From positions 1 to 64,000 of the forward strand of contig CADBNN010000040.1 in assembly GCA_902796075.1 (NCBI GenBank): a stretch of DNA of 64,000 nt, in the 5' to 3' direction. Under the pieces are notes generated by a model, which had not been told where the DNA came from, ran no database searches, and saw nothing but the letters and a program-made list of their open reading frames with translations. How positions within the stretch are numbered: the stretch's first letter is position 1; the number at the start of each line of letters is the position of its first letter. Of this stretch, positions 23,320 through 29,238 are shown in pieces. The position numbers and the translations under genes are program-made. This stretch comes from Oscillospiraceae bacterium (GTDB taxonomy: Bacteria > Bacillota > Clostridia > Oscillospirales > Acutalibacteraceae).

Positions 23320-24543
23320 ATGGAACAAAACAGATTGCAGCAATACGCCCGCTTGATCGCCAAAACCGGCGGCCGGGTACAACCGGGGCAAGAAGTCATT
23401 ATTATGGCCGAATTGGACCAGCCCCGCTTTATTGAAATGCTGGTGGAAGAATGCTACGCCTGCGGCGCCAAACGGGTGCGGGTGGAATGGACTCATCAGC
23501 CACTCACCCGATCCCACATTGCCCATTGCGACGTGGAAACCCTTTCCACCGTGGAAGAATGGGAAAAAGCCAAGCTGGCCCATCAGGTAGAGACCCTGCC
23601 GGTGCGCATTTATATTTTATCCGAAGATCCGGACGGCCTGAACGGCATCGACCAGGAAAAAATGTCCCGCGCCGGCGCCGCCCGTTCCAAGATCCTTAAG
23701 CCCTATCGGGACCAGATGGAAAACAAGTATCAATGGTGCATCGCCGCCGTGCCGGGGGAGGATTGGGCGAAAAAACTCTTCCCCGAAAAATCCTCTGCCG
23801 ACGCGATCGAAGCGCTGTGGGAAGCTATTTTGTCCGTCTCCCGTGTCACCGACGACCCCATTGCCGCCTGGGACGCCCACAACCGCGATCTGACCGACCG
23901 TTGCAACGCCCTTAACGCCATGGGCCTGGCCCAACTGCGCTATCACGCGGGCAACGGTACTGATCTCACCGTGGGGCTTATGCCCGAAGGCATGTTCCTG
24001 GGCGGGGGCGAAACCTCTCTGCAGGGCATTTATTACAACCCCAACATTCCGTCGGAAGAAGTGTTCACCACCCCCAAACGGGGCGAGGCCGAAGGCATTG
24101 TGTATTCCAGCCGGCCCTTGTCCTACCGGGGCGAACTCATTGAAGATTTTTCCGTGCGGTTTGAAAAAGGCAAAGCGGTGGAAGTCCACGCCCGCAAAGG
24201 GGAAGCGCTGCTCAAAGAACTCATCGGCATGGATGAAGGCGCCGCCTATCTGGGCGAATGCGCGCTGGTGCCCTACGATTCGCCCATTCGCCAAAGCGAA
24301 TTGCTGTTTTACAACACGCTGTTTGACGAAAACGCCGCTTGCCACCTGGCGCTGGGCATGGGCTTTACCAACTGTGTGCGGGGCTTTGAAGAAAAAACCC
24401 TGGAAGAGTGCCGCGCCCTGGGCGTGAACGATTCTATCATCCATGAAGATTTCATGATCGGCACCGCCGACCTGTCCATCGACGGCGTGACCGCCGACGG
24501 CCAGGTGATCCCCCTCTTCCGCAACGGCAACTGGGCGTTTTAA
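23320..24543 (+). CDS. M29 family aminopeptidase (AmpS/PepS-like)
   Basis: 407 residues, typical length. N-terminal LQQYARLIAKTGGRVQPGQEV matches the M29 signature start. The C-terminal metal region shows LGECALV, NAACHLALG and IIHEDFMIGT, containing the Glu and His ligands of the dinuclear site, and ends SIDGVTADGQVIPLFRNGNW. M29 enzymes are cytoplasmic broad-specificity aminopeptidases. AAGAGGTG is the ribosome binding site. It is the last gene of the three-peptidase cluster, closed by a long terminator stem. Confidence 0.92.
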   Translation: MEQNRLQQYARLIAKTGGRVQPGQEVIIMAELDQPRFIEMLVEECYACGAKRVRVEWTHQPLTRSHIAHCDVETLSTVEEWEKAKLAHQVETLPVRIYILSEDPDGLNGIDQEKMSRAGAARSKILKPYRDQMENKYQWCIAAVPGEDWAKKLFPEKSSADAIEALWEAILSVSRVTDDPIAAWDAHNRDLTDRCNALNAMGLAQLRYHAGNGTDLTVGLMPEGMFLGGGETSLQGIYYNPNIPSEEVFTTPKRGEAEGIVYSSRPLSYRGELIEDFSVRFEKGKAVEVHARKGEALLKELIGMDEGAAYLGECALVPYDSPIRQSELLFYNTLFDENAACHLALGMGFTNCVRGFEEKTLEECRALGVNDSIIHEDFMIGTADLSIDGVTADGQVIPLFRNGNWAF

Positions 24544-24883: not shown

Positions 24884-25183
24884 ATGAAAGAAAAAGCGTC
24901 TTACATCGGCAAAGCGGCGGCAGTTGGCCTGGTGGCCGGCGGCGTTGCGTGGGGTCTTTCCGGTCTGTTTGTGTGCGGGTGCGGCATATTCGCCCTGGTG
25001 GTGCTCGTCGCCCTCAACGCCGTCATCGAATCGCCGCGCGACAAAAACAACGTGTCGTTCGCCCGCGCAATGGACAACGCCATGTTATACAACACCGATC
25101 TGGGCACCGGCGCCCAGATCGCGGCGACGGAACAACTGCTGCAGCAGCTGAACGAACAAAAAAACGGCGCAAGTCGGCAATAA
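24884..25183 (+). CDS. Small glycine-rich membrane protein, unknown
   Basis: 99 residues, preceded by AAGGAGGTAG about 8 bases upstream. A short basic N-terminus (MKEKASYIGKA) leads into a Gly/Ala/Val-rich hydrophobic stretch at about 10-48 (GLVAGGVAWGLSGLFVCGCG, then IFALVVLVALNAV), enough for one or two membrane passes. The C-terminal half is soluble and ends in a Gln-rich helix (ATEQLLQQLNEQK). No family is recognised. It is first in a loose same-strand run with the BC1881-like gene 16 bp downstream, so the two may be cotranscribed. Confidence 0.7.
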   Translation: MKEKASYIGKAAAVGLVAGGVAWGLSGLFVCGCGIFALVVLVALNAVIESPRDKNNVSFARAMDNAMLYNTDLGTGAQIAATEQLLQQLNEQKNGASRQ

Positions 25184-25199
25184 AGAAGGAGGGAGCGCT

Positions 25200-25364
25200 A
25201 TGGATCTTTCACAAATTCCCACCGCCGCGCTGGTGGCGGAATTGCAAAAGCGGGCGGGCGTCAATACCGTCGTCGTGCCGCCCTATGAGCCCTATGCCGT
25301 CACCACCGGCCAACACACCGTCACCGATACCGGCCCCGTGGTGATATTGCAGGTGTGGGACTAA
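25200..25364 (+). CDS. BC1881-like small phage-type protein
   Basis: 54 residues: starts MDLSQIPTAALVAELQKRAG, then VNTVVVPPYEPYAV and ends GPVVILQVWD. AAGGAGGG lies 6 bases upstream of the ATG. The pattern (IPT..LV.EL..R.GV, then V.PYE.Y.., then GP..IL.V.D) recalls the small BC1881 family found in Firmicutes prophages and conjugative elements; that match is from memory and not searched. Function unknown. It is the clearest hint that the 24.6-27.75 kb block has mobile-element ancestry. Confidence 0.7.
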   Translation: MDLSQIPTAALVAELQKRAGVNTVVVPPYEPYAVTTGQHTVTDTGPVVILQVWD

Positions 25365-25445
25365 ACCCGGCAAACGGATACCGTGCAAACATATCGCAGG
25401 CAGCCGTGCTTGCGGTCGAAATAATAAAATCAAAGGAGAATTGAA

Positions 25446-26249
25446 ATGGAAAAACTCAAAACAATGGTAAACGCTTTGGATGAAATGAATGAACGTGAAC
25501 AAATCGTAAAACAACTGCAGGAAATCGGAAAGGTCTTGCTGACGGAGTATGAGATAAAAGTTGGCGATGTTACAATTCAGCCATTATTACTTGAAGCGTA
25601 TTATTATAATTCCAAATCTTTTCCTGATTGCAATATGCATTTGGTAGAGGAACAACAAGAATTCAATGTTTTATATAGGCACTCCAGAACAGAAAATCTA
25701 TCAGAAAGTGGTAGAGTTGGAGGAGTAGATATTTGTCTCGCCTGCAACAAATCCATAAAGAGCCGTGAAAGCGATAAGTATTATCTTTCATTCCTGATTA
25801 AAAATGCATTAGTGAATCACGTCTTCTGCCGGCAAGTTAAAATCAATGCGATAATAAATGATAAAATTAATCCCAAAAAGAAAATCGAGAATATGCTTAC
25901 GAAGAAAGCAGATAATGACGCTAAAAATACCAAGTGCTTATTTCTTGAACGTTTAGGCTTAACGAATGATTGTTACAAAGCTGAAAGGTTGGCAGTGTTA
26001 TCCATATCTGATCTTGTGAACTATAATTACGATTATACGTTACAGCCGTATAATAAACTCAGTCGTTTAAAAACATGGCGTGATGCTATTATAGACCTTG
26101 CAAATGATGAAAACGCTTATGTTGACTGCGATTATTCTGATTTCGAAAAAGAATCGGATGGAAAATTGAAATCGATTAATTTCAACTACCACAAACTTGC
26201 AAGGATAGATTGGAATTACAGCAAAACAAAGTTTTTGAACAAAGAGTAA
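25446..26249 (+). CDS. AT-rich hypothetical protein, possibly methylpurine-glycosylase-like fold
   Basis: 267 residues, with AAAGGAG 7 bases upstream. Base composition and codon use (many AAA, AAT, ATA, TTA codons) differ strongly from the GC-rich neighbours, a sign of recent acquisition. Recognisable stretches: a Lys/Glu-rich start, LLEAYYY, FPDCNMH, an LYRHS motif, SGRVGGVDICLA and YYLSFLIKNALV. The order EAYYY ... FPD..H ... GGVDI ... FLIKNAL recalls bacterial proteins related to 3-methyladenine DNA glycosylase; this is a low-confidence recollection. There is no signal peptide or membrane segment. Function otherwise unknown. Confidence 0.75.
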   Translation: MEKLKTMVNALDEMNEREQIVKQLQEIGKVLLTEYEIKVGDVTIQPLLLEAYYYNSKSFPDCNMHLVEEQQEFNVLYRHSRTENLSESGRVGGVDICLACNKSIKSRESDKYYLSFLIKNALVNHVFCRQVKINAIINDKINPKKKIENMLTKKADNDAKNTKCLFLERLGLTNDCYKAERLAVLSISDLVNYNYDYTLQPYNKLSRLKTWRDAIIDLANDENAYVDCDYSDFEKESDGKLKSINFNYHKLARIDWNYSKTKFLNKE

Positions 26250-26280
26250 GATTATATTGTAATGTATGTTGCCTAACTCT

Positions 26281-26310
26281 TGGGCGGCGGATGATCTCAT
26301 CCGCCGCCCA
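26281..26310. repeat. 14-bp perfect inverted repeat
   Basis: Arms 26281-26294 and 26297-26310 are perfectly complementary with only 2 bases between them, and are GC-rich in an AT-rich setting. The T-rich sequence comes only about 20 bases later (26320-26336), so it is either a terminator of the AT-rich gene with a displaced T-run or a palindromic protein site. Confidence 0.8.
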
Positions 26311-26413
26311 GGAGAAATTAATTCTTATTCTTTTTGAAATAAAAACAATTAAAAGGCGGCTATACCGCAAGCCGAAACGGTTCCGAAAAAGCGTTTAGAG
26401 AGGATGAAATTCT

Positions 26414-27232
26414 ATGCTTTACTTTTCCTCCTATATCCCGCGCGAATACACCGGTGCGGCGGTGGTTATACGCACGCTGTACGCTGCTTTGGATCGGTGC
26501 GGGGAGTCTTATATGTTGTTCAATGGCGCGGCGGATATGTGGGCGCGTGACTACATGCCAGTAAAAACACGCAGCGGACGGTATGTTTCGTTTCGATACG
26601 ATCCCGTATATTTAAAAGACAAAGCATACGCGCCGCTGCGCACCGTGTATAAACGGGACCTGGCCCCGGCCATCGGCCTGCCCGTGACCTATTCCTGCCT
26701 TGTACTGGACGGGGGCAACGTGGTGTTTTCACCCTCCCGGCGGCGGGCCGTCGTGAGTGAGCGGGCGTTTGCGGAAAACCCCGGCCTTTCCCAGGCCGCC
26801 CTGACCGCCCGGCTGGAACGGTTGCTGGAAGCCCGGGTCATCTGGATCGAATCGCTGCCCAGTGACATGACCGGCCACGCCGACGGCATGGTGCGGTTTG
26901 TGGATGAACATACTGTGCTGAGCAATCGCACCGATTTTCAAAACGGGCTGGAACAGCGCAATCGCCGCCGCCTGGAACAGGCCGGCTTGCGGGTGATTGA
27001 CTTCCCCTATGAGCAGAGCAGAGGTATCAGCGCGGAAGGGTGCTATTTGAACTATTTGCAAACCCAACGGCACCTTTTTTTGCCGGTGTTCGGCCTGCCG
27101 CAAGACGCCGAAGCCGAATCAACGGCGCGGGCGCTGTTTCGGCAGCAGGTGGTGCCCGTTCCCGCCGCCGGCCTGGCCCGTCACGGCGGCGTGTTCCATT
27201 GCGTTAGTTGGGCTGATGAAGCCCATCTATGA
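26414..27232 (+). CDS. Short agmatine deiminase/peptidyl-arginine deiminase family protein
   Basis: 272 residues, about 70-100 shorter than usual agmatine deiminases, with the N-terminal part reduced. The guanidine-modifying active site appears complete: Asp in MWARDYMP (D46), DGGNVVFS (99-106), GHADGMVRFV (H155, D157) and the nucleophilic Cys in GGVFHCVSW (C263). The family converts agmatine to N-carbamoylputrescine plus ammonia, or deiminates arginine. Substrate cannot be fixed here, and no putrescine genes are adjacent. The ribosome binding site is GAGAGG. GC-rich composition in its 3' two thirds contrasts with the preceding AT-rich gene. It is followed 12 bp later by the FtsZ-C-like gene. 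Confidence 0.8.
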   Translation: MLYFSSYIPREYTGAAVVIRTLYAALDRCGESYMLFNGAADMWARDYMPVKTRSGRYVSFRYDPVYLKDKAYAPLRTVYKRDLAPAIGLPVTYSCLVLDGGNVVFSPSRRRAVVSERAFAENPGLSQAALTARLERLLEARVIWIESLPSDMTGHADGMVRFVDEHTVLSNRTDFQNGLEQRNRRRLEQAGLRVIDFPYEQSRGISAEGCYLNYLQTQRHLFLPVFGLPQDAEAESTARALFRQQVVPVPAAGLARHGGVFHCVSWADEAHL

Positions 27233-27244
27233 AAGGAGAAAAAA

Positions 27245-27667
27245 ATGAATCATCATTCAGTCTGGCATTTTTTAAAAACAACCGACCGTTTTGCACCGAA
27301 AGGCGCCACGGCCGTGCAAATTGACGTTGATCCGAAAGTCGAGTCGGCACTGAACGACGCACCGGTTTTGCGATCGGGGTGGGCCATTGTGCAAAACATA
27401 AATGATTTGGCGACAGCCATTGCAAAAGCGTCTGCCGGATTGGCGCAAGGCATGCAGCCGGATGGCGTTATCGTGCTGATCTCCATGCCGGACGTCGCCT
27501 ATGCCCACATTTCCGTGGCGAAGCTTATGACGGCTGTTCATCCGGCGTTCACTTTGCCGGGCGCACCGGCCAACTGCTGTTTCGGCGTGCAAACCGATAG
27601 CGGACCGCAAGAGGAGTTTCGGGCGGTCGTACTGGTTTACGGGCAACCATTACAGCCGTTGCAATGA
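27245..27667 (+). CDS. Small protein resembling an isolated FtsZ C-terminal domain
   Basis: 140 residues, with AAAGGAG upstream. No signal peptide or membrane segment. From about residue 55 on, the pattern follows the second (C-terminal) domain of FtsZ: a helix LATAIAKASAGL after SGWAIVQN (compare MGIGIA..ENRA..AA..AI), a strand GVIVLISMPDVAYAHISVAK (compare GVLMNITGG..LSLYEVQEA), and NCCFGVQTDSGPQEEFRAVV (compare MIFGSVINE..KDEIVVTV). The GTPase domain and tubulin signature GGGTGTG are absent, as is the FtsZ C-terminal tail. This is pattern similarity by eye. Possible roles (division modulator, unrelated ferredoxin-like fold) are open. A strong terminator follows. Confidence 0.65.
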   Translation: MNHHSVWHFLKTTDRFAPKGATAVQIDVDPKVESALNDAPVLRSGWAIVQNINDLATAIAKASAGLAQGMQPDGVIVLISMPDVAYAHISVAKLMTAVHPAFTLPGAPANCCFGVQTDSGPQEEFRAVVLVYGQPLQPLQ

Positions 27668-27695: not shown

Positions 27696-27746
27696 CGGGC
27701 AACGCCGAGCGTCCATCAGAACATTCGGCGTTGCCCGGCGTTTTTT
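27696..27746 (+). terminator. Terminator closing the accessory block
   Basis: A 13-bp perfect stem (27696-27708 with 27725-27737), 16-base loop and six Ts at 27741-27746. Confidence 0.9.
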
Positions 27747-27815
27747 ATGATGATGTGCGACGGAAAACAGCCGTCGGTTTTTGTTGTTTATAAGCGGATT
27801 TTGCGTTTTTGCTAC

Positions 27816-27879: not shown

Positions 27880-29238
27880 ATGAAAGCCGCCAAACGTTTG
27901 GTGATTTTATTGCTGGCTGTATGCTTGCTTTTGGACGTATGGGTCGCCATGCGGGACAATCCGCTGTTTCGCAACGCGCCCACCGGCGACGTAACGGTGC
28001 TGGAGGTGCTGCCGTCTTCTTCAGCCGCCGTGACCGAAACCGTTCCCGCTTCATCTCAAGCCGCTTCATCCGCGGCGGAAAGCGAGGCCGAGCCCGCTTC
28101 TTCTCAGCCCGCCTCTTCTCAGGCAGCTTCTTCCCAAGCGGCTTCTTCCCAAGCGACTTCCTCTCAGGCGGCTTCTTCCCAAGCGGCTTCTTCCCAAGCG
28201 GCTTCTTCCGCGGCTTCGCAGGCCACCGCTTCTTCCAAACCTGCGTCCTCTCAGGCAACGGCGTCGCACGCGCCGGCCAAGCCCTCCAAACCGGCTAAAG
28301 AAACCAATCAAACCAAAATCGTCAACTACGTCACGCGGCCCACCTACGCTTCGGTGCAAAGTGAGATCGCCGCGCTGGCCGAAGCCTATCCCGACCTGAT
28401 CCGTGTGTCGTCCATCGGCACGTCGGTGCAGGGGCGGGACCTGACCATGCTCACCCTGGGCAACGGCCGGGCCGAAGCCTGCATCATTGCCGGCATCCAC
28501 GCCCGTGAAAGCGTGTCGGTCAGTTTTTTAATGCGCTGTGTGGAAGAATACGCCGCCGCGTATGTGTCCAAATCCGGCAAAATGGGCGGCTATAATATGC
28601 AGAATCTGCTGGACGTTTACACCTTATACATTGTGCCCCTTTCCAATCCGGACGGGTTGGAGATCGTAGGCGGCCGGGCCGAACCGGCGGTGCGGGTGGC
28701 CTATGAAAAAGATCAGGACATCAGCGATTACAAAGGCAACGCCAACGGCGTGAATCTGAACAAGAATTTCCCCCTGCTGTGGGATAAGATCGATACCAAA
28801 TGCAACAAACCCCACGCGGAAAAATATAAAGGCCCCGCCGCCGCTTCCGAGCCGGAGACCCAGGCGCTGATGGCCTTGTGCGAGGCCCACGATTTTATGT
28901 GGATGACTTCCATCCACGTGCGGGGCGACTGCGTGTACTGGTCAGATAAAACCAACCCTTCGGTGGGGCAGTCGGCCGTTATGGCCCAAAAGCTCAAAGA
29001 GCGGCTGGATTTTTATAAATGCCCCACGTCCGAAAAGGTGGAAGGCTACGGCGGCGGATTTGAAAACTGGTTCCGCCAGCAATACGACCGGCCGGGCCTT
29101 TGCCTGGAATTGATGCCGCTGGACTATTTTGTAACGCCGCTGAGCGACGAGACCCACAGCATTTTCAGCACCGCCACCCGGTGGGATCTGACCAAAAAAG
29201 CCATTCCGCTGCTGATGTATTTCGGCTTTATCTATTAA
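27880..29238 (+). CDS. Secreted/anchored M14 zinc carboxypeptidase with Ser/Ala-rich linker
   Basis: 452 residues. The N-terminal hydrophobic segment (about 7-24) is an uncleaved anchor or signal peptide. Residues 50-135 are low-complexity Ser/Ala/Gln/Pro. The M14 domain spans about 148-452, with zinc ligands in HARES (H207, E210) and SIHVRGD (H346) and the catalytic Glu in CLELMP (E410). The substrate-carboxylate Arg of the usual NRNF motif is Lys here (LNKNFP, K295), a conservative change. The domain resembles gamma-D-glutamyl-meso-diaminopimelate peptidase-type enzymes that trim peptidoglycan peptides; that specificity is inferred. It acts outside the membrane and is monocistronic. Its stop overlaps the convergent small gene by 4 bp. 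Confidence 0.88.
   Translation: MKAAKRLVILLLAVCLLLDVWVAMRDNPLFRNAPTGDVTVLEVLPSSSAAVTETVPASSQAASSAAESEAEPASSQPASSQAASSQAASSQATSSQAASSQAASSQAASSAASQATASSKPASSQATASHAPAKPSKPAKETNQTKIVNYVTRPTYASVQSEIAALAEAYPDLIRVSSIGTSVQGRDLTMLTLGNGRAEACIIAGIHARESVSVSFLMRCVEEYAAAYVSKSGKMGGYNMQNLLDVYTLYIVPLSNPDGLEIVGGRAEPAVRVAYEKDQDISDYKGNANGVNLNKNFPLLWDKIDTKCNKPHAEKYKGPAAASEPETQALMALCEAHDFMWMTSIHVRGDCVYWSDKTNPSVGQSAVMAQKLKERLDFYKCPTSEKVEGYGGGFENWFRQQYDRPGLCLELMPLDYFVTPLSDETHSIFSTATRWDLTKKAIPLLMYFGFIY
28093..28215 (+). repeat. Tandem pentapeptide-coding repeat (ASSQ-type)
   Basis: About eight 15-bp units encoding variants of AASSQ (residues 72-112 of the carboxypeptidase). Several units are identical (GCTTCTTCCCAAGCG), so copy number may vary by slippage. 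It probably forms a flexible, possibly glycosylated cell-wall-spanning linker. Confidence 0.9.

Follow-up and report, generated by a model that had tools for sequence, protein, structure and literature searches.

The window analysed here (the whole stretch of 64,000 nucleotides) contains an open reading frame (ORF) whose product bears a faint likeness to the second half of FtsZ, the cell-division protein, as found in the same host. A sequence-only reading had proposed that this 140 amino acid product resembles a C-terminal domain of FtsZ without a GTPase domain. If the kinship is true, partial duplication would have placed a stand-alone FtsZ C-domain inside a variable accessory block, where it could be a naturally occurring decoy for, or dominant-negative of, the division machinery; if it is false, the ORF is one more orphan cargo gene. 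The evidence described here falls short of establishing the protein as a relative of FtsZ.

Accounts of lambda Kil (PMC3961180), T5 Hdi (PMC10714956) and the CbtA toxin (PMC5624674) describe small phage or accessory-region proteins whose target is FtsZ. The protein considered here may be likened to these as a small product of an accessory region, action on FtsZ being in its case a proposal of the sequence-only reading. To our knowledge, none of the three is itself a copy of an FtsZ domain.

The ORF and the variable block

The ORF was found exactly where it had been placed (27245-27667), and the segments of its product that had been quoted as FtsZ-like are all present: SGWAIVQN (residues 44-51), GVIVLIS (74-80), CCFGVQT (111-117) and EEFRAVVLVYG (123-133). 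It lies in a variable block of roughly 2.8 kb (24884-27667) made up of a 99 amino acid gene, a BC1881 family gene, a 267 amino acid gene, a deiminase gene and the ORF itself. The phage-type gene that had been reported nearby is real, and is the BC1881 family member. The features of the block and of the region immediately downstream are as follows.

24884..25183, forward strand: gene for a 99 amino acid protein with a hydrophobic stretch, first of the accessory block (ORF list, codon analysis)
25200..25364, forward strand: BC1881 family (phage-type) gene, 54 amino acids (NF033495, E 6e-11)
25446..26249, forward strand: 267 amino acid gene ahead of the deiminase, GC 34%, related to genes in loci L026, L096, L097, L099 and L100
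26414..27232, forward strand: short PAD_porph-type deiminase gene upstream of the ORF (H155, D157 and C263 invariant; 10 orthologs)
27230..27247, forward strand: deiminase stop codon, Shine-Dalgarno sequence AAAGGAG and ORF start codon, read from the sequence
27245..27667, forward strand: orphan ORF of 140 amino acids, read from the sequence, with no family match or relatives
27464..27649, forward strand: codons 74-135 of the ORF, aligning with own-genus FtsZ in the S8-H10-S9-S10 region (Smith-Waterman, genus HMM)
about 27696..27747, forward strand: probable intrinsic terminator with a 13-bp stem, a 16-nt loop and a T run, read from the sequence

The ORF begins 12 bp beyond the deiminase stop codon, with the AAAGGAG sequence 6-7 nt 5' of its ATG, and the terminator that follows has a GC-rich stem leading into TTTTTT. 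This hairpin is absent from the list produced by our terminator scan, which covered loops of 3-8 nt only. When the stretch was shuffled 1000 times with its dinucleotides preserved, an ATG-initiated ORF of at least 140 codons appeared on the same strand 15 times (1.5%). Codon usage in the ORF is weak: its log-odds is 0.017 per codon, where genes of the window average 0.352, and its own antisense frame scores no lower (0.025). The 267 amino acid gene ahead of the deiminase is equally low (0.013), so that foreign origin accounts for the weak codon usage of the ORF as well as a non-coding frame would.

Two chromosomal genes flank the block, one for an aminopeptidase (23320-24543) and one for an M14 carboxypeptidase (27880-29238). 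Both flanks are found together in another genome of the same genus, G002 (L114, 4836-6059 and 6657-7943; 75% and 65% identical, respectively), where only an unrelated 158 amino acid gene lies between them and the block is absent, which is why we regard the block as variable. As a separate observation, the M14 carboxypeptidase gene has a low-complexity Ser/Ala/Gln repeat in its N-terminal part (ASSQAASSQ; window 28090-28300).

Relatives of the 140 amino acid protein could not be detected. There was no match in Pfam at E values of up to 10, nor in NCBIfam, PADLOC or the PDB sequences, and PHROG returned a single match at E 0.11. Searches of 60 related genomes (at E 0.001) and of 391 genomes of the class (at E 0.01) gave no match, and the best match among 394 genomes of the order was not below E 0.004, these three genome sets being partly overlapping. 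A viral scan and a plasmid collection held no relatives, and the best match in a phage collection reached only E 5. The single match among genome contigs, in Taylorbacteria (L002), was rejected as spurious, being short, interrupted by a stop codon and overlapping an ABC-transporter gene. The sub-threshold matches from across the order were also set aside: they had been preselected from some 394 genomes, and the one that recurs resembles fumarylacetoacetate hydrolase (FAH).

Comparison with FtsZ

As had been claimed, the Rossmann GTPase domain and its GGGTGTG motif, which is present in the genome's own FtsZ, are missing from all 140 residues. Also absent are the T7 synergy loop (NxDxxD/E), which reads NLDFAD in the genome's own FtsZ, and the AT of the VTVIATG strand. 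What the protein appears to share with the FtsZ C-terminal domain (FtsZ_C, PF12327) is the predicted order of its structural elements and, across the last two strands, the pattern AN..FG..D....E.R..V...G; the protein as such has its best match in own-genus FtsZ.

A general FtsZ_C profile was built from 30 FtsZ proteins from across the phylum. In hhalign this profile aligns only residues 107-135, with a score of 20.0 and a probability of 3.6%, a result equalled by 2 of 300 shuffles and by none of 111 fragments of the window. The corresponding HMM gives the protein 2.9 bits. Of 2000 shuffles, 26 do as well, and so do 28 of 2162 fragments of real proteins, two or more of which are FtsZ-like. In a panel of 25 profile HMMs the FAH, FtsA-like and SpoVS families and a membrane-protein family score about as well. 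Real copies behave quite differently, three divergent FtsZ proteins used as positive controls scoring 49-108 bits with hhalign probabilities of 97-99.6%, and the genome's own FtsZ scoring 154 bits. Judged in this way, the proposal fails: the likeness to FtsZ_C in general does not clearly exceed chance. Extra, divergent FtsZ-like genes were noticed as weaker FtsZ_C matches in genomes of the same phylum (L208 in genome G455, L209 and L210 in G453), the open frame of L209 being only 248 amino acids long.

Comparison with the FtsZ of the host's own lineage gave a stronger signal. The Smith-Waterman score against the genome's own FtsZ is 60, where shuffled sequences average 31 and 1 in 1000 does as well; against the C-domain alone, none of 1000 shuffles does. 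Across 84 FtsZ C-domains, the mean Smith-Waterman z falls from 6.7-6.8 for the genome itself and its genus to 3.8 for the order and family and 2.9 for the phylum; the genus supplies four of the five highest scorers. With a profile of five genus sequences, residues 47-135 align in order and without a break in the alignment, for 10.3 bits and a nominal E of 2.6e-5, which 1 of 2000 shuffles matches. Only two of 2162 real forward fragments outscore the protein with this profile, and both look to be of FtsZ type and to have been missed by our filter; two of the 2162 reversed fragments score equally, these being neighbours in the list and probably overlapping. Of the roughly 950 proteins that entered the comparison without prior selection for similarity, own-genus FtsZ gives the best signal.

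The likeness to own-genus FtsZ exceeds chance, at a level of about 1/1000 to 1/2000 that is uncorrected for the other families that might have been considered. Part of the gradient with kinship would be expected even if a single member matched by chance, because the relatives of that member score alike, but a peak in the host's own genus is what chance would not predict. Even so, hhalign gives the genus profile a probability of about 6% at the highest, the FtsZ of one genus member (G003) aligns differently and more weakly, and no convincing trace of an ftsZ duplication was found at the DNA level. Both profiles leave the protein short of the PF12327 gathering cut-off of 27 bits, and the hhalign probabilities (3.6-6%) lie far under the 50% line that the sequence-only reading had drawn for a match to FtsZ_C, whilst other families equal the phylum-wide profile. 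Of the block-by-block match that had been made by eye, what stands is that the blocks occur in order and resemble the FtsZ of the host lineage most strongly; the homology drawn from it is not established.

Structure models and competing explanations

AlphaFold, run without relatives or an alignment, returned models too poor to decide the matter (pLDDT 41 for the whole protein, 55 for residues 40-140). The full-length model predicts a helix at 52-66, a strand at 74-81, a helix at 84-98 and strands at 110-118 and 124-132, elements that would fall on H9, S8, H10, S9 and S10 in the FtsZ alignment and whose order is compatible with the two-layer beta-alpha-beta-alpha-beta-beta fold of FtsZ_C. Other proteins, RidA and Alba/SpoVS among them, are known to have the same order of elements; the model of residues 40-140 displays only part of it. 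Foldseek found no match at E 0.001 for either model: near the top for the full-length model were SpoVS, Rpp25 and Alba (E 0.005-0.02), the best matches to residues 40-140 were Y-family polymerases and tubulin chains reached probabilities of at most 0.04. A viral structure library gave no match to the models, and no FtsZ or tubulin chain was among the matches listed by VIA-align. Two candidates were rejected. The little finger of Y-family polymerases, the top structural match to residues 40-140 (Z 6.2, rmsd 3.8, 84 residues aligned), lies in the range that the tool rates as a common arrangement; RidA/YjgF (PF01042), an idea formed by eye, gave an hhalign result equalled by 75 of 300 shuffles and an HMM score of -0.6 bits. 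A third, SpoVS/Alba/IF3-C, had been prompted by the pLDDT-41 model and appears improbable, since the SpoVS HMM (3.9 bits) does not align in register with the elements predicted for the protein.

The reading that we favour, at roughly even probability, is that the ORF product is small and non-catalytic, an accessory to a variable cassette, and would have a function tied to its operon. The ORF would then be a real, lineage-restricted accessory gene that closes a short operon 3' of the PAD-type deiminase gene, its product a small alpha/beta protein without proven ancestry. To judge by where its gene stands in the operon, this product would most likely serve the cassette as a non-catalytic partner or regulator, and might bind the deiminase or its target. 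The Shine-Dalgarno sequence, the 12-bp spacing and the terminator argue for this, as do the lack of any family match or of relatives in the order, the class and the collections, the absence of the block from G002, the alpha/beta elements predicted at low confidence and the finding that the phylum-wide FtsZ_C profile does no better than several unrelated families. Against it speak the own-genus signal, best among the proteins that had not been preselected, the absence of the ORF from the other deiminase loci and the weak codon usage. The own-genus signal is the core of a second and less probable account, which we nevertheless take seriously: the protein may descend from the C-terminal domain of the lineage's own FtsZ and have diverged, the GTPase domain and the T7 loop being lost. 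On joining the FtsZ pool it might in that case attach to filaments through the retained half of the C-domain, at the polymer interface, and so cap or weaken them, or it might be a decoy for FtsZ-binding factors. The shuffle results, the concentration of the best matches in the genus, the lack of any real forward non-FtsZ fragment scoring as high and the position of the predicted elements all point to such a descent. Against it stand the reversed fragments, the low hhalign probabilities, the bit scores of true divergent copies, the silence of the DNA comparison, the G003 alignment and fold searches that name no FtsZ; moreover, the test was picked after the resemblance had been seen, when thousands of families could have been thought of.

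Two other explanations seem improbable. The protein might derive from another small alpha/beta family (Alba, SpoVS or IF3-C) or be a remnant of FAH, as the Foldseek ranking and the HMM scores of SpoVS and FAH (3.4 bits for the latter) would suggest; we consider this unlikely, as little can be concluded from matches to a pLDDT-41 model, SpoVS aligns out of register, the FAH match spans just the first 37 or so residues and implies a different fold, and nothing exceeds a curated cut-off. With codon usage as weak as this, the ORF could be a decaying or spurious one, and the lack of relatives, the equal score of the antisense frame and the frequency of such frames in shuffled sequence are in keeping with this. 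We think it quite unlikely that the frame has no working product, given the strong Shine-Dalgarno sequence, the tight spacing behind the deiminase and the terminator directly 3' of the ORF.

The deiminase loci

The gene upstream of the ORF matches PF04371 at E 1e-25, and the likeness to PAD_porph and agmatine deiminases (PF04371, TIGR03380) at this locus belongs to this neighbour, not to the ORF. In comparison with AguA it is a short form that scores far under the AguA cut-off. The deiminase is also encoded in nine other genomes of the order, with identities of about 48-54%, and the His, Asp and Cys expected in the family (H155, D157 and C263) are invariant in all ten copies. Conservation of the ORF beside the deiminase gene had been put forward as a check: it is absent from all nine of the other loci (L026, L027 and L095-L101), which makes a fixed partnership between the two unlikely.

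The deiminase gene usually has directly 5' of it a gene that varies by locus. Methylpurine-DNA glycosylase genes precede it in L095 (E 2e-23) and L027 (E 3e-12), members of the 260-270 amino acid family seen in the window, which matches no known family, do so in L026, L096, L097 and L099 (in L100 the member lies further along), and other proteins take this place in L098 and L101, the one in L101 having a sub-threshold HNH match. A profile of the 267 amino acid family matched no solved structure. Two loci encode, close to the deiminase, reverse transcriptases whose best match is the PADLOC model for Ec107-like retrons (L027:5800-6867, minus strand, E 1e-122; L098:1974-3038, minus strand, E 2e-116), and in L027 the reverse transcriptase, methylpurine-DNA glycosylase and deiminase genes follow one another on one strand. 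BC1881 family genes lie upstream of the cassette in three loci (window 25200-25364, L099:2636-2809 and L101:3203-3367).

Apart from the reverse transcriptase, no PADLOC model fits the deiminase cassette, and a literature search for a retron with a deiminase and a glycosylase found nothing relevant. The deiminase loci are candidates for an uncharacterised defence-type cassette, and may be a better lead than the ORF itself. CapRel is reported to sense a complex of T7 Gp0.4 with FtsZ (PMC13423816). One could imagine, by analogy, that the C-domain of the host's FtsZ was domesticated as the ORF product, that a deiminase/DNA-glycosylase cassette of defence type carries it as cargo, and that it serves there to sense FtsZ-attacking phage proteins or to act as their decoy, but we rate this conjunction as very unlikely. 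Proteins with Sel1-like repeats, recognised by eye, were also seen near the BC1881/deiminase region in L027, L096, L098, L099 and L101.
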